64,000 bases of DNA from Coprothermobacter proteolyticus DSM 5265. Lineage in GTDB: Bacteria > Coprothermobacterota > Coprothermobacteria > Coprothermobacterales > Coprothermobacteraceae. Both the position numbers and the translations under genes were made by a program. The notes beneath the pieces were generated by a model. The model was not told the DNA's origin. It did no database searches and saw only the letters and a program-made list of their open reading frames with translations. Below are positions 55,039 through 63,242 of this stretch, piece after piece. The DNA is taken from the NCBI RefSeq assembly GCF_000020945.1, contig NC_011295.1, positions 186,001-250,000 on the forward strand. Reading direction: 5' to 3'. Every line of letters begins with the position of its first letter. Position 1 is the stretch's first letter.

Positions 55039-55977
55039 TTGCCATATGCAAAAACCAAAGACATTCTCAGCAAAGCTCACAACGAAGGTTACGGTGTGGG
55101 CGCTTTTAACGTTAACGATTTGGAGTTCATACAAGCCATTGTAAAAGCTGCGGTTATGGAGAATTCACCAGCCATCATTGAGGCTTCCGAAGGAGCTTTA
55201 AAGTATGCTGGTGATGGCGATGTGGAAAAGGGAGCTTTCATCTTAGCTGACATGGTACGTCGTTACGCCGATGCTGTTTCTGTGCCCATTTCCCTTCATT
55301 TAGACCACGGCCACGATCTTAAACACATCATGGCGGCTATAAAGGCAGGATTTACTTCTGTCATGATTGATGCTTCCGACAAGCCTTTGGAGGAAAACAT
55401 CAGAATTACTCGCCAAATTGTGGAAGTGGCACATGCTGCTGGTGTGGCTGTGGAGGCCGAGCTCGGACGATTAATGGGCATTGAAGACAACGTTGCCAGT
55501 GCCGAGAGCGTTTTGGTGGATCCAGATGAAGCTAAGAGGTTTGTTACTGAAACTCAAGTAGATTTCTTAGCTCCGGCGGTAGGGACAAGCCATGGCGCTT
55601 TCAAGTTCAAAGGCGAAGCAAAGATTGATTATGAAAGGATTTCCAAGGTAAAGGAACTAACCCAACTACCACTCGTACTTCATGGAGCAAGTGGTGTGCC
55701 TGCCCAGTGGGTTGAACTTGCTGAAAAATACGGTGCTGACCTGTCAGGTGCTAAGGGTGTTCCTGATGAAGTGCTTCAGGAAGCCGTTAAGAGAGGTATT
55801 AACAAAGTCAACACCGATACGGACCTCAGGATTGCTTTCTTGGCTGGTTTAAGGAAGCATTTGGCTGAAAATCCAAAAGAGTTCGACCCCAGGAAATACT
55901 TCGGAGAAGCTAAAGATTTTGTTACTGAAGTAGTAAGAGACAGAATGAAAATGCTTGGTTCTTCGGGAAAAGCTTAA
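55039..55977 (+). CDS. fba: class II fructose-1,6-bisphosphate aldolase
   Basis: A 312-residue zinc aldolase. It has GYGVGAFNVNDLE (about residues 15-27), LHLDHGHDLKHI (catalytic Asp and Zn His, about 80-91), VEAELGRLMGIED (about 134-146), VGTSHGAFK and VLHGASGVP (Zn His). TTG at 55039 has a perfect AAAGGAGGT 8-9 nt upstream, so the longer in-frame start is rejected. It follows the M20 gene by 41 bp. It links fructose uptake (fru operon) to glycolysis. Confidence 0.94.
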   Translation: MPYAKTKDILSKAHNEGYGVGAFNVNDLEFIQAIVKAAVMENSPAIIEASEGALKYAGDGDVEKGAFILADMVRRYADAVSVPISLHLDHGHDLKHIMAAIKAGFTSVMIDASDKPLEENIRITRQIVEVAHAAGVAVEAELGRLMGIEDNVASAESVLVDPDEAKRFVTETQVDFLAPAVGTSHGAFKFKGEAKIDYERISKVKELTQLPLVLHGASGVPAQWVELAEKYGADLSGAKGVPDEVLQEAVKRGINKVNTDTDLRIAFLAGLRKHLAENPKEFDPRKYFGEAKDFVTEVVRDRMKMLGSSGKA

Positions 55978-56002
55978 AAAGAACGTCAAAACAACAAAAA
56001 AA

Positions 56003-56026
56003 GGGGCTCCCCGTATGGGGAGCCCC
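56003..56026 (-). terminator. terminator between fba and the SPW gene
   Basis: GGGGCTCCCC (56003-56012) and GGGGAGCCCC (56017-56026) form a perfect 10-bp stem with a GTAT loop. On the minus strand it is followed by seven T, so it is strongest as the end of the SPW-gene transcript. On the plus strand the tail (TAATCAATTT) is weaker, but it probably also ends fba. Confidence 0.85.
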
Positions 56027-56062
56027 TAATCAATTTCCTAAGCCTTTAGGGAAGCTATGGTG

Positions 56063-56356
56063 TTACTGATTTCCACCAAGTGCAGCAAAACCTGCGATGG
56101 CCATTAGGATACCAACAATGATGTTGTTCCACATGTAACCTGCACCCTGTGTTAAGAAGAATGCCGCTATTATTGCCCAAATTCCCATTAATACGCCAAG
56201 CCATTTTTGCCATGATTTCTCAGCTGGGAACATGTAAGCGCAAATTGCTACTATGATACCGACGATAATTCCATTCCACATTGCTGCAGATGCTGCCTTA
56301 AAGATCCAAGGAGATAGCAAATACCAAATACCAAGTAAACCGACTAACCATTGCAT
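56063..56356 (-). CDS. SPW-repeat membrane protein
   Basis: A 97-residue membrane protein with four hydrophobic helices arranged as two repeats. The first is GIWYLLSPWIFKAASAAMWNG and IIVGIIVAICAYMF; the second begins GIWAIIAAFFLTQGAGYMWNN. The first carries the SPW tripeptide that names the family; the second has lost it. Function in the family is unknown. TAAGGAGGTG precedes the ATG. Confidence 0.8.
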   Translation of the reverse strand: MQWLVGLLGIWYLLSPWIFKAASAAMWNGIIVGIIVAICAYMFPAEKSWQKWLGVLMGIWAIIAAFFLTQGAGYMWNNIIVGILMAIAGFAALGGNQ

Positions 56357-56460
56357 GTTTCAACACCTCCTTAGGCAACACATGGTTCTCTCATTGCCCA
56401 CATGTTTTATACCCATGTGCACCCATTCTTATGCGCCATAGTTCAGAAGGTTTTGCAAGG

Positions 56461-57354
56461 TTATGCTGCTATGGATTTTATTATGTCTTTAACGGGCAGG
56501 ATCTCTTTTATTAATCCGGCGCTTTGCCCCATCATGAAAGCACCGTTTTCTAAGTCACCTTCAACCGCTCTGATAAGAGCTCCCAGCATGAGGTTGGAAA
56601 ACGTTTCTTCATCACCGTTGTATTCTGCCTCAATAAGCTTTTGTGCTAACTGGTTCCTCCATATGCGCACAGCGTGTTTGAACCGTCTGCCCACTTCCAC
56701 AGTGGACCGTTCGTTAGCTTTTAGCACCACGTCCTTGTATGCAGAACTAATAGGTGCCTCTTCAGAGGCTACAAAACGCGTACCCATTTGAACGCCTGCT
56801 GCGCCCATGGCTCTCATGGCGCGGTAACTATCTTTATCTACTATGCCGCCTGCGGCTATGACAGGAATGTTCGTAACTGACTTAAGAACTGCGTTTACCA
56901 GTACGATGGTAGTCACATCGCCAATGTGCCCACCCGATTCTTTACCTTCGGCAATTACTCCGTCAGCACCAGCTTTCTCCAACAAAAGTGCTTGGTTTGC
57001 AGAACCAACCAAAGGCAATATTTTGATGCCTTTTTCTTTGAGGGTTTTCATGAAACTGGAAGGATTCCCTGCTCCCGTAGTAATCACTGGAGGCTTTTCT
57101 TCCAGCACGACCTTTATTTGGTCTTGCCAGAACTCGCTTTGAAGCATCAGATTCACGCCAAAAGGTTTAGATGTGTTTCTTCTGACTTCGCGAATTTGAT
57201 CCCTGAGTTCTTCAGGTGTCATAGCAGCGCCGCCTAGTACTCCTAAGCCGCCAGCTTCACTCACTGCTGCCACCAGTGGTGCTTTTGCAACGCGTGCCAT
57301 GCCACCTTGTATGATGGGATATTCAATACTAAGTAGTTCTTCTAAAGAGATCAT
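56461..57354 (-). CDS. fabK: enoyl-ACP reductase II (FabK-type, FMN)
   Basis: A 297-residue FMN enzyme of the nitronate monooxygenase/FabK family. It has PIIQGGMARVAKAPLVAAVS at the start, GVNLML, the GAGNPSSF loop, EGKESGGHIG with the substrate His, and IAAGGIVD plus QMGTRFVAS for FMN phosphate. Placement after fabZ in a fatty-acid operon supports enoyl-ACP reduction rather than nitronate oxidation. Its ATG overlaps the fabZ stop. Confidence 0.88.
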   Translation of the reverse strand: MISLEELLSIEYPIIQGGMARVAKAPLVAAVSEAGGLGVLGGAAMTPEELRDQIREVRRNTSKPFGVNLMLQSEFWQDQIKVVLEEKPPVITTGAGNPSSFMKTLKEKGIKILPLVGSANQALLLEKAGADGVIAEGKESGGHIGDVTTIVLVNAVLKSVTNIPVIAAGGIVDKDSYRAMRAMGAAGVQMGTRFVASEEAPISSAYKDVVLKANERSTVEVGRRFKHAVRIWRNQLAQKLIEAEYNGDEETFSNLMLGALIRAVEGDLENGAFMMGQSAGLIKEILPVKDIIKSIAA

Positions 57355-57740
57355 TATTCCACCGCCACCTTAAAAACTATTTTCGCTTCACTAACCAGCG
57401 TATCCCCTTTGAAAATTTGTCCGCTTCCAAAATAGAAGCCCGCTTTTTCGTTTTCCAGCTTCGCCTTTATGGTAATGTTGTCACCTGGGAAAATGGGCTG
57501 CATGAATTTAGCCTGCTCAATCCGTGCCAGTAGTGGTAGTCCAGGTGTTTTAACCAATAGCCCCAGCGTCTGAGCCATGGCTTCAACGTGCAGTACACCT
57601 GGAAAGATAGGATAACCGGGGAAATGACCCTGAAAAAAGGGTAAATTAGGGTCCACATAATACTGCGCTTCACACATATTCCCTTCCGCCTTAAAGCTGT
57701 CAACAAACAAGAATGGCCAGCGGTGGGGAAGGGGTATCAC
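57354..57740 (-). CDS. fabZ: 3-hydroxyacyl-ACP dehydratase FabZ
   Basis: A 128-residue hotdog-fold dehydratase. The N-terminal LPHRWPFLFVD and the catalytic PFFQGHFPGYPIFPGVLHVEAMAQ (His about 46, Glu about 60) are characteristic. GTG at 57740 has GGAGG 5 nt upstream and begins the fold; longer readings run into the anti-sigma gene. It overlaps the anti-sigma stop by 4 bases and fabK by 1-3 bases, so the three are translationally coupled. Confidence 0.93.
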   Translation of the reverse strand: MIPLPHRWPFLFVDSFKAEGNMCEAQYYVDPNLPFFQGHFPGYPIFPGVLHVEAMAQTLGLLVKTPGLPLLARIEQAKFMQPIFPGDNITIKAKLENEKAGFYFGSGQIFKGDTLVSEAKIVFKVAVE

Positions 57741-58045
57741 TTTTTCCTCCAAAGCAAGGCACCTCCTGCTGCTAGTAGTACGCCCACACCCAAACCAACA
57801 CCGCCAACTATCCACGGTGTTAAGGAAGATGTCTTACCTCTGGTTAACTGTGCTACTTTCTTCTCTGGCTTGTGGGTGTAGCTAACCAAACTTCGAAGTT
57901 CGGCAAACAGCTCTTCCCATTTCTCAGCCTCTTCATAGCAACTATTGCAATTTTGCAGGTGCTCAGAGACCTCATTCATTTGATTTCTCGTCAGCTCGCC
58001 CTTTACGTAGGCTGGTATTAGTTCCACTACTTCTTTGCATTCCAC
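57737..58045 (-). CDS. zinc-finger anti-sigma factor
   Basis: A 102-residue anti-sigma factor. The N-terminal zf-HC2 domain has MECKEVVELI, His in VSEHLQNCNSCYEEAE (HxxxCxxC, about residues 31-38), which binds zinc in ZAS-type anti-sigmas. A single membrane helix (about 77-97, IVGGVGLGVGVLLAAGGALL) ends in WRKK, leaving almost nothing outside. GTG at 58045 has GGAGGTG 6 nt upstream. It overlaps the sigma gene by 74 bases and fabZ by 4. Confidence 0.88.
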   Translation of the reverse strand: MECKEVVELIPAYVKGELTRNQMNEVSEHLQNCNSCYEEAEKWEELFAELRSLVSYTHKPEKKVAQLTRGKTSSLTPWIVGGVGLGVGVLLAAGGALLWRKK

Positions 58046-58544
58046 CGTTCTCACCTCCTTCTAATCTCTTTCTTAAGGCTTTCCGAGCCCTATGGAGTTG
58101 CACCCGCACGTTTTCCTCTGATATGTCCAACATTCTTGCGATCTCTTTCATGGGGAAGTTATAGATGTCACGTAGAACTATGAGTGTGCGTTGATTTTCT
58201 GGTAAGTCCATGACAGCCATTTCTAACATGAGATGCATGTCCTCTGCTGTATGAGCACTGGGCTCGACATAAATGATTTTTCGCTTTTTTCTAAGAAGTT
58301 GAAGAGCAGTGTTTGCTGTTACGCGGTAAAGCCACGTGCTCAAGCTGGATTCGTTTCTGAAGGACTTTATCTTGGACCACAAGATCCACGCTACTTCTTG
58401 GGTCACATCCTCAGCGTCCTCTCGGTTTCCCAGCAGTCTGTATGCTAACGTGTAAATATCGCGCTCAAAACGACTAAAGAGTTCCTGAAAAGCTTTTGGA
58501 TCACCACGTTTTACTTTTTCAATGAGCACATGTTCAACCTTCAT
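57972..58544 (-). CDS. ECF-family RNA polymerase sigma factor
   Basis: A 190-residue ECF sigma factor. Region 2 (about 10-75) has FSRFERDIYTLAYRLLGNREDAEDVTQ-type sequence and WLYRVTANTALQLLRKK. Region 4 (about 105-160) has LPENQRTLIVLRDI and EIARMLDISEENVRVQLHRARKALRK. The start overlaps fabF by 11 bases. About 24 residues after region 4 (GGMQRSSG onward) are read from DNA that also encodes the anti-sigma start. Its targets may include the surrounding lipid genes. Confidence 0.88.
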   Translation of the reverse strand: MKVEHVLIEKVKRGDPKAFQELFSRFERDIYTLAYRLLGNREDAEDVTQEVAWILWSKIKSFRNESSLSTWLYRVTANTALQLLRKKRKIIYVEPSAHTAEDMHLMLEMAVMDLPENQRTLIVLRDIYNFPMKEIARMLDISEENVRVQLHRARKALRKRLEGGENGGMQRSSGTNTSLRKGRADEKSNE

Positions 58545-59754
58545 AGCGCCTCAGCACCAATACGGAGTTATGACCACCGAAACCCAATGACTCCTTTAGA
58601 GCATAGTTGATAGTTCTTTTCTCGCCTTTGTTTGGCACATAGTAAAGGTCACACTCTTCGGCAGGCTCCTGGAAGTTTATCGTGGGTGGCACCATTTGTT
58701 CTTGCAAAGCCAACACAGTTGCTACCGTTTCCACGGCGCCTGATGCCCCCAGCAAATGTCCTATCATGGATTTTACGGAGCTCACAGGTATTTCATAAGC
58801 ATGATCTCCTAAAGCTTGCTTTATTGCTTTGGTTTCAATAACGTCGTTTAATGGAGTAGACGTTCCATGAGCACATACGTAGTCAATTTGTGCTGGTGTT
58901 ATGCCTGCTCTCTTTAATGCTTTTTCTATGGCTATTGCTTGAGGCTCAGCAGAAGGGTCTGGAGCTGTCACGTGATAAGCATCGCAGGTGGCAGCATAGG
59001 CTACTACTTCGGCTAATGGTTTAGCGCCACGTTTTAGTGCATGTTCCAAGCTTTCCAAAACCAAAGCACCAGCGCCTTCTCCCATAACAAATCCGGAATG
59101 CCTTTTATCAAATGGTCGTGATGCAGTGGGTTCATTCAACGGTGATAGAGCTTTCATATTGTGGAAACTAGTGATACCCAAGGGAGTAATGCTGGCTTCA
59201 GAGCCTCCAACTAGTACTGCGTTTAGGTCTTCTTCTTGTTGCAGTAAGGTGTATCCTTGTCCGATGGCATCTAAGGAAGCTGCGCATGCTGTAGTGGGAG
59301 CGAACGTGGGGCCATGAAAACCGTGTTCTATGGCAATGTTTGCAGCTGCTATGTTAATGATGGAAGCTGGAACAGTGAAAGGCGAAACTGTTCTTTGTCC
59401 CTTTGTGTACAGGTTCACTATTTGGCTTTCCAAGTACTCCAGACCACCCATGCCAGATGCGAAAACCACTCCCACCGTGTATGGATCTACATCCTTTAAC
59501 TGAGCAGCCTCTATTGCCTCTCGAGCTGCCACCAGGGCAAACTGAGTGAAGCGATCCAATCTTTTGACATCTTTCTTATCAAAGTACTGCAGGGGATCAA
59601 AATCCACTTCCCCTGCATATTTCACCGGCAGATCACTGTATCTGGTTATGGGTTTTATGCCGTTTCGTCCTGCAAAAATACCTTCTTTGAACGTTTGCAG
59701 GCCTACGCCGAAGGGTGTTACCACACCTACTCCGGTGATTACGATTCTTTTCAT
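58534..59754 (-). CDS. fabF: 3-oxoacyl-ACP synthase II
   Basis: A 406-residue condensing enzyme. The catalytic Cys is in APTTACAASLDAIGQGY (about residue 161). His residues are in CAHGTSTPLND (about 295) and KSMIGHLLGASG (about 331). It elongates acyl-ACP with malonyl-ACP. It starts within the acpP stop (ATGA) and its own end overlaps the ECF sigma start. No fabH is in the cluster, so the initiating condensation must come from elsewhere or from this enzyme. Confidence 0.94.
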   Translation of the reverse strand: MKRIVITGVGVVTPFGVGLQTFKEGIFAGRNGIKPITRYSDLPVKYAGEVDFDPLQYFDKKDVKRLDRFTQFALVAAREAIEAAQLKDVDPYTVGVVFASGMGGLEYLESQIVNLYTKGQRTVSPFTVPASIINIAAANIAIEHGFHGPTFAPTTACAASLDAIGQGYTLLQQEEDLNAVLVGGSEASITPLGITSFHNMKALSPLNEPTASRPFDKRHSGFVMGEGAGALVLESLEHALKRGAKPLAEVVAYAATCDAYHVTAPDPSAEPQAIAIEKALKRAGITPAQIDYVCAHGTSTPLNDVIETKAIKQALGDHAYEIPVSSVKSMIGHLLGASGAVETVATVLALQEQMVPPTINFQEPAEECDLYYVPNKGEKRTINYALKESLGFGGHNSVLVLRRYEG

Positions 59755-59966
59755 GCATTACCACCTAGCACCCGGAGCAGATCGCCCACGGTCTTGATTT
59801 CAGATAGCTTTTCTTCGGGAATTGTATAGCCCTTCTGTTCCAAAGAAAGAGTTAGATCCACCAAACCCAAGGAATCCACACCCAAGCTTTCAAAACTGGT
59901 CTCCTCAGTCAAGCCCTCTGTTGGGTAACCATTTTCTTCCAATAAGCTCTTTACCATTTCCATCAT
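59751..59966 (-). CDS. acpP: acyl carrier protein
   Basis: A 71-residue acidic ACP. The phosphopantetheine serine is in SLGVDSLGLVDLTLSLEQ (about residue 33); the usual DSLD-x-VE is DSLGLVD here. The N-terminus is a few residues shorter than typical ACP (75-80). AAGGAGGT lies 9-10 nt before the ATG. The stop overlaps fabF. Confidence 0.92.
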   Translation of the reverse strand: MMEMVKSLLEENGYPTEGLTEETSFESLGVDSLGLVDLTLSLEQKGYTIPEEKLSEIKTVGDLLRVLGGNA

Positions 59967-60029
59967 GTTTTTTCAAACCTCCTTGTTTTTCTTTTTAGTT
60001 TTTATCTCGATAGTATTAACGCACTTGAA

Positions 60030-60704
60030 TCACGCAGTAAAAAAGCCTCCGTCTACGTAAATGACTTGCCCAGTCATGAAGGAAGACAGAGGTGAGAGCA
60101 AGAAACAGATGACATTTGCCACCTCTTCAGGTTCAGCCAATCGCTTTAGCAGTGTGTGCTGAGTAAAGCCATCGACGACCATTTGAGGCAACTCTGTTGT
60201 CATTTTGGTGTTAACTAAACCTGGCGCTATGGCGTTGACCCTGATACCCTTTCTTGCCCATTCTTTTGCCAGTGTTTTCATCAGGGCTTCCAAACCTGCC
60301 TTAGAAGAACTGTAGGCTGCTTGTCCAATATTTCCCCACTGAGCTACTATGGAACTCAAGAATACCACACTGCTGTTTGGCTTTAAGGCCATGTAAAAAT
60401 GTTTGGCTGTTAGGAATGCACCGGTCAGGTTCGTTTCTATGACTCGTTGCCAATCAGCCAATGTGAGGAGTCCTACTGGTTTGTCCACCGTTATGCCTGC
60501 AGTATATACCAATCCATCCAATATCTTGGACCACGATCCATACTGCTTAAAAGATTCTTCGTCAGTGACATCCAAATAATGTTGGCTTTTTCTACTAAGC
60601 AGTATGGCTTTGGCACCTTCTTGTTCTAGAGCTTGAGCTGTGGCTTTTCCGATATCGCCACTTCCTACAATGGCAAACGTTTTTTCACAGAGTTGCCAGT
60701 TCAT
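60030..60704 (-). CDS. fabG: 3-oxoacyl-ACP reductase (FabG-like SDR)
   Basis: A 224-residue short-chain dehydrogenase. The cofactor motif is IVGSGDIGKATA (about residues 11-22; the usual TGxxxGIG is GSGDIG), then AGIT, the catalytic Ser in FLSSIVAQWG and AAYSSSKAG (Tyr-Lys, about 132-136), and VNAIAPGLVNTKM. It is shorter than typical FabG (245), mainly in the early part after the Rossmann start. It overlaps the upstream acyltransferase by 20 bases. Confidence 0.88.
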   Translation of the reverse strand: MNWQLCEKTFAIVGSGDIGKATAQALEQEGAKAILLSRKSQHYLDVTDEESFKQYGSWSKILDGLVYTAGITVDKPVGLLTLADWQRVIETNLTGAFLTAKHFYMALKPNSSVVFLSSIVAQWGNIGQAAYSSSKAGLEALMKTLAKEWARKGIRVNAIAPGLVNTKMTTELPQMVVDGFTQHTLLKRLAEPEEVANVICFLLSPLSSFMTGQVIYVDGGFFTA

Positions 60705-61524
60705 GAACTAATACCACCTTCTGACCGGTGAGTTTGGCCAGCAATGGTTCCAAGTTGATTTCCACAAGTATGTCAAAGTTCCTGCTTTCTAAGAAGGCAA
60801 CAGTTCTTGTCCAATCTACTGGCTTTGCGAGAGATTCTGCCAAGAGTTTAACAATTTCCCCGTAGTTTGTTACTACATCGTCTGCAATGTTCAAGTACAC
60901 ATCAAATTCGGGGTCCTTGCCTTCAACAGTGAGAAGGAATTCGTAGAAAGCTTTTGAAGCCTTTTCCAAGTAAGGTGTGTGGAAGGGCTTGTTTCCTTGT
61001 ATCCTCTTATAGGCAATACGCTCTTCCTTCAATGTAGCTTCTACTGCGGGCAAATCTTCAATGATACCTCCCACAAGTACCTGCCTTTGACTGTTAATGT
61101 TCGAATAGAAAACTCTTCCCTTGAATGCGTTTACTACAAAATCTGCAGATTCTCTGTCCCTGAGTGCAATTAGCCACCCATCTGGGCAGAGTTCTTGCAT
61201 GTAGTATCCACGTGCTTTTACAACCTTGTACAAGGATTGCAAATTCCAAACCCCGGCCTCCCAAAGTGCTGCGTATTCCCCCAAACTGTGTCCCACAGCC
61301 AAATCTGGTTTGTCTAAGTCTTCTGCCAGCGACACTTGCATTAAGGTTATAGTTGGTTGAGCATTAATGGTCTTATTTAGTTCCTCTTGAGGGCCTACCC
61401 AGGCAACTTCCAGCAGCTTGGGATCTTCAGCCATTAATAAGTTTTCTACTGTTCTACTGAAGTACTTTCCCATGCCCACTTTCTGTATGCCTTGTCCTGG
61501 AAAAAGATGAGCCATTTTTTGCAC
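60685..61524 (-). CDS. fabD: malonyl-CoA:ACP transacylase-like protein 1
   Basis: A 279-residue FabD-like acyltransferase. It has AHLFPGQGIQKVGMGK (about residues 5-20), the catalytic Ser in VGHSLGEYAAL (about 77-87), the carboxylate-binding Arg in KARGYYMQE (about 105), and His in NKPFHTPYLEKA (about 188). All four malonyl-transfer features are kept, so of the two paralogues it is the better FabD candidate. GTG 61524 has GAGGTG 7 nt upstream. Somewhat shorter than usual FabD (about 310). Confidence 0.82.
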   Translation of the reverse strand: MQKMAHLFPGQGIQKVGMGKYFSRTVENLLMAEDPKLLEVAWVGPQEELNKTINAQPTITLMQVSLAEDLDKPDLAVGHSLGEYAALWEAGVWNLQSLYKVVKARGYYMQELCPDGWLIALRDRESADFVVNAFKGRVFYSNINSQRQVLVGGIIEDLPAVEATLKEERIAYKRIQGNKPFHTPYLEKASKAFYEFLLTVEGKDPEFDVYLNIADDVVTNYGEIVKLLAESLAKPVDWTRTVAFLESRNFDILVEINLEPLLAKLTGQKVVLVHELATL

Positions 61525-61569
61525 GTTTCATCACCTCAATACTATTAGATGCACCTGGGGGGTGAAATG

Positions 61570-62412
61570 TTACAAAGTCAAATGGTAGAACTCCGACACG
61601 TTATAGGTTGGAAAGGAGGTAAATTTGCTTAAATAGGGGCGTGGGTACACTTCCACCAATGTGCTTATTTCACTTCTCTTTAGGTACTCTTGGGTTTCCA
61701 ACCAGTTGATAGGTTTTGTCAGACCAAGAGTTAAACCTTCGATTACATCATCATAACTCTGTACCACGCGTTTTAGGGCGTTCAGGTAGACAGATATGGC
61801 AGGCATTTTGCCCGGATTGATTTCCAAGAAGGAACGTAGCCTTTGTGCGGCTTTTTCCATGTAGGGTGTGTGAAAAGGTGCTGACACGTGTAGCAATGTG
61901 TATTCCACGTGGTTTTCTTCTAGAAACTCTTTCAACTTTTTCCAATCAGCTTCAACACCTGCTACGACTACTCGGTCTTCGCTGTTAATGGCAGCCAAGT
62001 ATACGGACTTGAATTCTCCAAGCACCTGTTGTCTGCTGTTTGAGGGGATTTGCACCATGAAACCCTTGGGTGCGAAGGAAGCGCTGAAATGGCCCCTAGC
62101 TCTTATGATTTCAAATCCAGTTCGAACATCCCAAACTCTGGCTTCCACCAAGGCTGCATATTCTCCTGAGCTATGCCCTAAGACTAGGGATGGAGATGGC
62201 AGCTTTTCCATGAGGGACGCTTCTACTAGGTAAACAGCAGGCTGTACGAATTCTGTTTCTGTGAGTATTTCTTTATCTTGTTTTTCCAAAGCAGTTATTA
62301 ACTTTTGGAAGCTTTCAGTAGCAATTTGCAATGCCTTCCTTGAAAGGTACTTTCCCATTTCAGGGAACTGTGCACCTTGTCCCGGGTACGCATGTGCAAT
62401 CTTTGTTGCCAT
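61570..62412 (-). CDS. malonyl-CoA:ACP transacylase-like protein 2 (divergent paralogue)
   Basis: A 280-residue FabD-like acyltransferase, tandem to the one downstream. It keeps AYPGQGAQFPEMGKYLS, the Ser nucleophile in LGHSSGEYAALVEA (about residue 81) and His in SAPFHTPYMEKA (about 183). The Arg is kept in RARGHFSAS, but the Met-Gln that follows it in malonyl-specific enzymes is lost, and the Ser flank is S-S-G rather than S-L-G. Its acyl preference could differ. First gene of the fab cluster; no ribosome site, TATAAT 6 nt before the ATG. Confidence 0.8.
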   Translation of the reverse strand: MATKIAHAYPGQGAQFPEMGKYLSRKALQIATESFQKLITALEKQDKEILTETEFVQPAVYLVEASLMEKLPSPSLVLGHSSGEYAALVEARVWDVRTGFEIIRARGHFSASFAPKGFMVQIPSNSRQQVLGEFKSVYLAAINSEDRVVVAGVEADWKKLKEFLEENHVEYTLLHVSAPFHTPYMEKAAQRLRSFLEINPGKMPAISVYLNALKRVVQSYDDVIEGLTLGLTKPINWLETQEYLKRSEISTLVEVYPRPYLSKFTSFPTYNVSEFYHLTL

Positions 62413-62418
62413 AAAAAT

Positions 62419-62424
62419 ATTATA
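62419..62424 (-). promoter_or_regulatory. -10 box 6 nt before the first fab gene (leaderless)
   Basis: TATAAT on the minus strand (62424-62419), then ATTTTT and ATG at 62412. It has the same geometry as the HD-hydrolase gene at 52582. No ribosome site is possible in this gap. It would be the main promoter of the fatty-acid cluster. Confidence 0.5.
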
Positions 62425-62480
62425 GATCCACTAAAATGAAATAGTATGAGCATGAACTCCTCTCCTAAGGAGGACTAATT

Positions 62481-63242
62481 GTGAACGAACGGTATGTGGT
62501 TCAGGAAAAGTTTCCCCCACTGGGGGTGGAAGGCCAGAAGCTGCTTAGAAAAAGTAGTGTTGTTTTAGTTGGCGTGGGCGGTTTAGGAACTTTTATTGCT
62601 CAGTACTTAGTCAGAGCAGGCGTGGGTCGTCTTAGGTTGATTGATTTTGACGTTGTTGAGCTATCAAATCTGCAAAGACAGATTTTGTACGACGAAGGTG
62701 ATGTGGGAAAGTCCAAAGCCCAATGTGCTTATACACACTTGAGACGAATTAACAGTGAGGTAATCTTGGAGCCGGTGGAAGATAAACTCACTGGCCAAAA
62801 TGCTGAGAGTCTTCTTACGGGCTTTGACGTAATTATGGATGGGACGGACAATTATCAAGCACGTTTTGTAATGAACGACGTGGCCAAGAAGAATGGCATC
62901 CCTTTTGCATTTGGTAGTGTTGCTGGCGCCTATGGCATGTCGAAAATGTTCCTTCCTGATGAAAAGATATGTTTGCGCGACGTAGTGGGAGACAGCCTTG
63001 ATGTTTCTAACGCACCTACAGCCGCCACAGGAGGGCTAATAAGCCCTATTTTAGGTGTGGTCACCGCTTTCATGGCTACCGAGACCATAAAAGTACTCAC
63101 AGGCGCCTTGGATAAAGTGGAAAGGAGGCTCATGGTTTTCGATCTTTGGCAAAACCAATGGAGTCAACTCTACATTGCTGAAAATCCCCAATGCGAGGTC
63201 TGTTCCGGTAAACGTTATCCAGCGTTAGAGGGCGATTTTTAG
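62481..63242 (+). CDS. MoeB/ThiF/HesA-family adenylyltransferase (E1-like)
   Basis: A 253-residue E1-like enzyme that would adenylate the C-terminal Gly of a ubiquitin-fold sulfur carrier. It has VLVGVGGLGTFIAQYL (about residues 28-43), IDFDVVELSNLQRQ (about 53-66) and MDGTDNY. The zinc site is altered: the usual first CxxC is CLRD (about 172) while the second, CEVC near the C-terminus, is kept. The active-loop Cys region reads SNAPTAATGG with no Cys. No carrier gene is adjacent. AAGGAGGA precedes the GTG. Confidence 0.85.
   Translation: MNERYVVQEKFPPLGVEGQKLLRKSSVVLVGVGGLGTFIAQYLVRAGVGRLRLIDFDVVELSNLQRQILYDEGDVGKSKAQCAYTHLRRINSEVILEPVEDKLTGQNAESLLTGFDVIMDGTDNYQARFVMNDVAKKNGIPFAFGSVAGAYGMSKMFLPDEKICLRDVVGDSLDVSNAPTAATGGLISPILGVVTAFMATETIKVLTGALDKVERRLMVFDLWQNQWSQLYIAENPQCEVCSGKRYPALEGDF

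Follow-up and report, generated by a model that had tools for sequence, protein, structure and literature searches.

How a bacterium reads the state of its own membrane and adjusts lipid synthesis to it is an open question. Within a fatty acid synthesis (fab) operon of Coprothermobacter proteolyticus DSM 5265 lie overlapping genes for an ECF sigma factor and a putative anti-sigma factor. Does this pair control the operon in which it resides and, if so, what does it sense? An initial annotation, made from the DNA alone, had proposed a feedback system linking membrane state to lipid synthesis. Here the question would be testable in a very small system, with a one-helix sensor candidate of about 100 residues, a regulon of two promoters in its own genome and a control loop contained within one operon.

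The window analysed is a 64,000-base stretch (G000:C1:186001-250000) of a 1,424,912-base genome in a single contig. The comparison set comprised nine Coprothermobacterota genomes (G000 to G008, G000 being the genome under study). G000 to G003 are Coprothermobacter, and G004 belongs to the same family. G005 and G006 come from another family of the same order; G008 is from a third family and shares its genus with G007.

Organization of the fab operon

Gene coordinates, together with Pfam and NCBIfam matches, bear out the order fabF-sigma-anti-sigma-fabZ-fabK given initially. The operon is larger than first noted, with fabD2-fabG-acpP upstream of these genes and an SPW-repeat gene and a terminator downstream. 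The complete order on the minus strand is fabD2-fabG-acpP-fabF-ECF sigma-anti-sigma-fabZ-fabK-SPW (Table 1). An equivalent hairpin follows the SPW gene in G001. We predict that fabD2 is the first gene of a transcript driven by a candidate ECF promoter, whose -35 box overlaps the final bases of fabD1.

Table 1. Features of the fab operon and its flanks, in window coordinates
Feature	Coordinates	Strand	Basis or detail
fabD1, second FabD-like gene, upstream of predicted ECF promoter	61570..62412	-	Acyl_transf_1 2.1e-21
Predicted ECF promoter TGTAAC-N19-TCTAA	61545..61574	-	-35 61574-61569, -10 61549-61545; exact match
fabD2, malonyl-CoA:ACP transacylase-like	60685..61524	-	Acyl_transf_1 8.6e-21; fabD model 2.4e-42
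fabG, 3-oxoacyl-ACP reductase	60030..60704	-	adh_short_C2 4.1e-53
acpP, acyl carrier protein	59751..59966	-	PP-binding 1e-11
fabF	58534..59754	-	TIGR03150 556 bits, above cut-off
ECF sigma factor, 190 aa	57972..58544	-	Sigma70_r2 5.9e-18, Sigma70_r4_2 5.2e-16
Anti-sigma factor, 102 aa	57737..58045	-	zf-HC2 2.8e-10 (40.5 bits, cut-off 22.2)
fabZ, from conserved TTG start; alternative GTG 57740	57354..57752	-	FabZ models and start conservation
fabK, enoyl-ACP reductase II	56461..57354	-	TIGR03151 349 bits
SPW-repeat small membrane protein, last gene of operon	56063..56356	-	PF03779 1.8e-18; position kept in G001-G004
Intrinsic terminator, strong, 11-bp stem and T run, operon end	56002..56027	-	

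The two FabD-like genes are a diverged tandem pair (about 36% identical), and the candidate promoter precedes fabD2 only. A TATAAT sequence (62424-62419), for which no -35 element was found, lies 6 bases 5' of the fabD1 ATG and suggests that the fabD1 transcript is leaderless. Genes for fabH and acc are absent from this operon; the third family (G008) clusters both with the sigma gene. The SPW gene closes the fab unit throughout the family of Coprothermobacter, even where fatty acid synthesis has been lost.

The overlaps of 11 bases between fabF and the sigma gene and of 74 bases between the sigma and anti-sigma genes are as initially described, and the anti-sigma gene starts at a GTG behind a near-perfect Shine-Dalgarno sequence (AGAAGGAGGTGA). 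The 4-base overlap given for anti-sigma and fabZ fared less well. The corresponding fabZ start candidate, GTG 57740, reads ATA in G001 and G003, whereas an in-frame TTG at 57752, preceded by AGGAGGTG, is conserved (GTG in G001). Because the TTG is conserved and the GTG is not, an overlap of 16 bases is more likely.

The 74-base overlap is specific to the genus, the sigma and anti-sigma genes of the other families sharing only 4 (ATGA) and 10 bases; short overlaps occur at the fabF/sigma and sigma/anti-sigma junctions in every family. A comparison of G000 with G001 shows 21 differences in the 74 bases, 12 of them at third positions of the anti-sigma frame (first positions of the sigma frame), and residues are kept at 16 of 24 positions in the anti-sigma frame versus 11 of 23 in the sigma frame. 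The excess of differences at the anti-sigma third position indicates that the anti-sigma frame is constrained and that the C-terminal tail of the sigma factor (about 25 residues), which overlaps the anti-sigma gene, is a passenger. Since this tail is unconstrained and missing in other families, a function specific to the 74-base overlap was rejected; at most, the overlap has a role in coupling.

The sigma factor and its membrane partner

The sigma factor consists of sigma2 and sigma4 only (Sigma70_r2, residues 22-89; Sigma70_r4_2, residues 105-157), joined by a short linker. This domain make-up and the adjacent, overlapping anti-sigma gene found in all families are those of an ECF (group IV) sigma factor, as is the AAC in the -35 element predicted for the promoter of the sigma transcript in three families. 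The ECF-typical CGT of the -10 element is not matched, all sites reading TCTAA; CGT is typical of ECF promoters and does not define them (PMC8103513). Family models place the protein nearest SigW/SigM-type ECFs, and its nearest solved structure is SigW (5wuq). Its scores stay below both NCBIfam SigW equivalog cut-offs, at 115.1 of 209 and 108.2 of 243.1 bits. A profile of the sigma factor yields 270-327 bits inside the phylum versus 142 or less for the best outsider. In a tree of 42 ECFs, the sigmas of the Coprothermobacter family and of G005 and G006, six in all, form a supported clade (98/91), which the G008 sigma joins with modest support (65/85).

The Coprothermobacter anti-sigma factor carries a zf-HC2 domain with an Hx3Cx2C motif. 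AlphaFold2 models residues 1-50 with a pLDDT of about 90 and leaves the tail unmodelled, and its PDB fold matches, all weak with E values from 0.25 upwards, are led by the anti-sigma domains of RskA, RslA, RsiW and ChrR. The N-terminal domain resembles those of Class I anti-sigma factors (ASDI; RskA, RslA, RsiW, ChrR) in its profile match and, weakly, in fold. The protein differs from these in having about 100 residues, a C-terminal helix and 3-10 residues beyond it.

Hydropathy confirms the single membrane helix and near absence of an outer domain that had been proposed: there is one hydrophobic stretch, at about residues 78-97 of 102, with some 5 residues beyond. The same holds in every family, where the proteins have 99-104 residues, one helix and 3-10 residues past it; the helix of the other families is Gly/Ala-rich or hydrophobic. 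No family's anti-sigma factor has an outer domain for site-1 cleavage of the RsiW type. A site-2-type protease gene is encoded in the genome, and to our knowledge such proteases occur in nearly all bacteria. The C-terminal tail is basic (RKK), and its predicted location outside conflicts with the positive-inside rule.

The zinc finger described for this protein is present in Coprothermobacter and is not conserved further, the cysteines being gone in both other families. What remains without them is a GEL[TS] motif, the W and, in the family of G005 and G006, YTHKP. A zinc finger acting as a conserved sensor was rejected on the loss of the motif in two of three families, and zinc can be dispensed with, its role in the protein being probably structural. 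Mixtures of zinc and non-zinc members occur within anti-sigma groups (PMC7406223). The partner protein of G005 and G006 gives a weak anti-sigma match (7.3e-6), below the cut-off, and that of G008 (103 aa) matches no family. The latter is a putative anti-sigma homologue by its place, size and topology.

Conservation of the pair and a candidate promoter

The insertion of the pair among fab genes is conserved in three families of the phylum. In G000 to G003, fabF-sigma-anti-sigma-fabZ-fabK is kept with the same overlaps. G005 and G006 have fabD-fabG-acp-fabF-sigma-anti-sigma-fabZ-fabK, divided between two contigs in G006, with a sigma factor about 50% identical. The pair leads the gene set in G008, where sigma-partner-fabZ-fabK-fabH-accD-accA-accB-accC-birA-fabD-fabG-acp-fabF form one run and the sigma factor is 36% identical. 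The surrounding fab gene order varies between families, and sigma-anti-sigma-fabZ-fabK is contiguous in all three.

Two genomes of the phylum are without a detected sigma factor. G004 is without fabF and has also lost the sigma factor, anti-sigma factor, fabD2, fabG, acp and fabZ; it probably lives on outside fatty acids. Its fabK and SPW genes remain at the same locus (L084:8110-10226, G004:C1) along with fabD1, the sole surviving copy of the FabD-like pair. In G007, fab genes are present. An IS605-type transposase gene (TnpB/OrfB-like) lies beside fabZ at a contig end of this genome (L083:5086-6210, G007:C253), in the position held by the sigma and anti-sigma genes in its sister genome G008. 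Outside the phylum, no ECF gene lies near fabF in any of 60 fabF neighbourhoods (about 656 kb). One outside genome (L322) seemed to have a sigma gene no more than 5 kb from fabF; this gene, which lies on the opposite strand, was discarded, as its product reads as a sigma-70 family member that is not an ECF.

The sequence TGTAAC-N19-TCTAA was first spotted by eye when the regions upstream in G000 and in G008 were compared; G005 and G006, seen afterwards, served as an independent test. In G000, G001, G002, G005, G006 and G008, the same boxes and spacing precede whichever gene comes first in the transcript that includes sigma; in G008 they lie directly before the sigma gene itself. The motif occurs once in the window (0.02 expected in shuffles), and the nine genomes hold 21 exact sites versus 6 for the reversed pattern. 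Neither G004 nor G007 has an exact site. None was found in G003, whose contig starts at fabF and whose genome is 68% complete. The boxes are invariant, and the spacers, with 7-13 of 19 bases identical, have diverged. Sites with one mismatch were set aside, being at background and no commoner than those of the reversed control; nearly all of those examined are intragenic. Scoring of 55950-62600 for sigma-70-type promoters returned 0 versus 9.1 expected.

G000 has only two exact sites in 1.42 Mb, at the fab operon and at plsY (TIGR00023, 167 bits, cut-off 137), the product of which is the first phospholipid acyltransferase. The plsY site lies on the minus strand at C1:497685 and is also present in G001 and G002; between G000 and G001, 7 of 19 spacer bases are shared and 11 of 11 box bases are kept. 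The initial annotation had predicted both a common, sigma-dependent fab promoter and a regulon tied to membrane lipids. The candidate with identical boxes and spacing in three families agrees with the first prediction. A single further exact site in the genome, at plsY and kept in the genus, points the same way for the second. With the insertion itself conserved, none of the three outcomes named beforehand as contradicting the initial proposal was seen. A phylum-wide role for plsY as a target was rejected, as no plsY site exists in G004 to G008.

Other exact sites were considered individually. The same promoter precedes a second FabK/NMO-like gene in G005:C40 and G006:C86 (L099, L096); the G006 copy is degenerate, with the promoter before it intact. 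A DegV/FakB-like gene of a fatty acid-binding family (L221, G005:C89) was rejected as a regulon member, the exact site in G005 being absent from the G006 orthologue.

A proposed control loop and its alternatives

ECF control of fatty acid synthesis has precedents. In Bacillus subtilis, SigW increases fabF expression by way of a promoter that lies within fabHA-fabF, making the membrane stiffer (PMC8144471, PMC3875570); how membrane stress leads to SigW activation has been described as unclear (PMC8144471). The pair studied here resembles SigW-RsiW in joining an ECF sigma factor to a membrane-bound, zinc-type anti-sigma factor and in its fab-linked control. Unlike this pair, SigW is encoded at a distance from fab and governs a large envelope regulon, and its -10 element is a different one. 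RsiW is longer, with an outer domain that is cut by site-1 protease. In Pseudomonas aeruginosa, SigX upregulates many fab and acc genes and changes the fluidity of the membrane; its operon includes no anti-sigma gene, and the fab genes that it targets revealed no upstream consensus (PMC3875570). Its gene, unlike that of the sigma factor here, lies outside any fab operon. Regulators of the FabT/FapR/FasR type, which bind DNA and read lipid intermediates, likewise exert dedicated or co-located control over fatty acid synthesis. In this deep-branching, thermophilic phylum, the sigma/anti-sigma pair would stand in place of such regulators, an ECF sigma factor taking a role filled elsewhere by dedicated repressors.

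No description of an ECF sigma factor in a fab operon, or of Coprothermobacter sigma factors, was found in the open-access literature. The initial view that such a system had not been described therefore stands for the arrangement, as far as that literature goes, and falls for ECF control of fatty acid synthesis as such, given SigW and SigX. What is new is the dedicated regulon, its place inside the fab operon, the coupled, tail-anchored partner and the persistence of the pair across the phylum.

Most likely, the pair serves as an ECF switch that is dedicated to membrane-lipid synthesis and activates its own expression. Together with RNA polymerase, the sigma factor would read TGTAAC-N19-TCTAA and transcribe fabD2 through SPW and, in Coprothermobacter, also plsY; conservation of the motif, conservation of its position and its rarity genome-wide argue that the sigma factor reads it. 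The anti-sigma factor, made by coupled translation, would bind the sigma factor via its N-terminal domain and hold it at the membrane through its single C-terminal helix, as its family and fold suggest. Jointly, action of the sigma factor on the motif targets and its binding and tethering by the anti-sigma factor appear likely.

Because nearly nothing of the anti-sigma factor lies outside the membrane, a signal would have to come from the cytoplasm, enter through the helix or bilayer, or act by proteolysis within the membrane or the cytoplasm. For the same reason, there would be no substrate for the usual site-1 step of RsiW/RseA-type systems, and activation would fall to proteolysis directly in the membrane or in the cytoplasm, or to altered helix packing. 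In the version that we favour, a bilayer with too little or too fluid lipid would loosen or destabilise the anti-sigma factor, and the freed sigma factor would increase production of fatty acids and phospholipids until the membrane had recovered. A single-helix anti-sigma factor free of an outer domain fits bilayer sensing without being proof of it, and the near absence of this domain in every family strengthens the idea. We nevertheless propose the bilayer as the signal only tentatively. Equally provisional is the broader picture of a fab operon that encodes its own sigma factor and a bilayer-reading anti-sigma factor, in a loop ancestral to Coprothermobacterota that replaces FapR/FabT-type repressors.

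The same regulon could instead answer to a cytoplasmic signal (acyl-ACP, malonyl-ACP, redox or zinc) at the anti-sigma domain, with the helix as a mere tether. This domain is the best conserved part of the protein and has Hx3Cx2C in Coprothermobacter, redox sensing is common among soluble zinc anti-sigma factors (PMC7406223), and the pair is predicted to be expressed along with the enzymes that would make the signal. Loss of the zinc motif in two of three families, however, means that zinc or redox is not the conserved signal, and a cytoplasmic sensor would not need the C-terminal helix kept in all families. We therefore consider this reading somewhat unlikely. It is improbable that the anti-sigma factor is a stoichiometric brake on a standing fatty acid sigma factor, with coupled translation setting the ratio for homeostasis or noise control and no specific sensor. 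Such a brake would accord with the short coupled overlaps in every family, the lack of a sensor domain and the prediction of no other promoter for the operon, but would have no need of a membrane anchor. Moreover, such sigma/anti-sigma pairs are as a rule signal-responsive.

The remaining alternatives detach the pair from the operon. Another sigma factor, either a different ECF or the housekeeping one, might read the motif while the pair controls something else; the genome has at least three other ECF-type genes, and GTAACA-N18-TCTAAT is vaguely sigma-70-like. Housekeeping sigma factors nearly require an A at the second -10 position, and the invariant C found there argues against one. The motif was not found upstream of the other ECF genes of G000, exact sites are absent from both genomes without the pair's sigma factor (G004 and G007), and the G008 site lies immediately before the pair's own sigma gene, all of which makes this alternative very improbable. 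Finally, the likeness to SigW/SigM-type ECFs would suit a general envelope-stress system that came to lie in the fab operon by chance. We give this idea scarcely any credence: the pair is kept in three families despite their differing fab orders, it was lost together with fabF in G004, and its exact sites in G000 are confined to fab and plsY.
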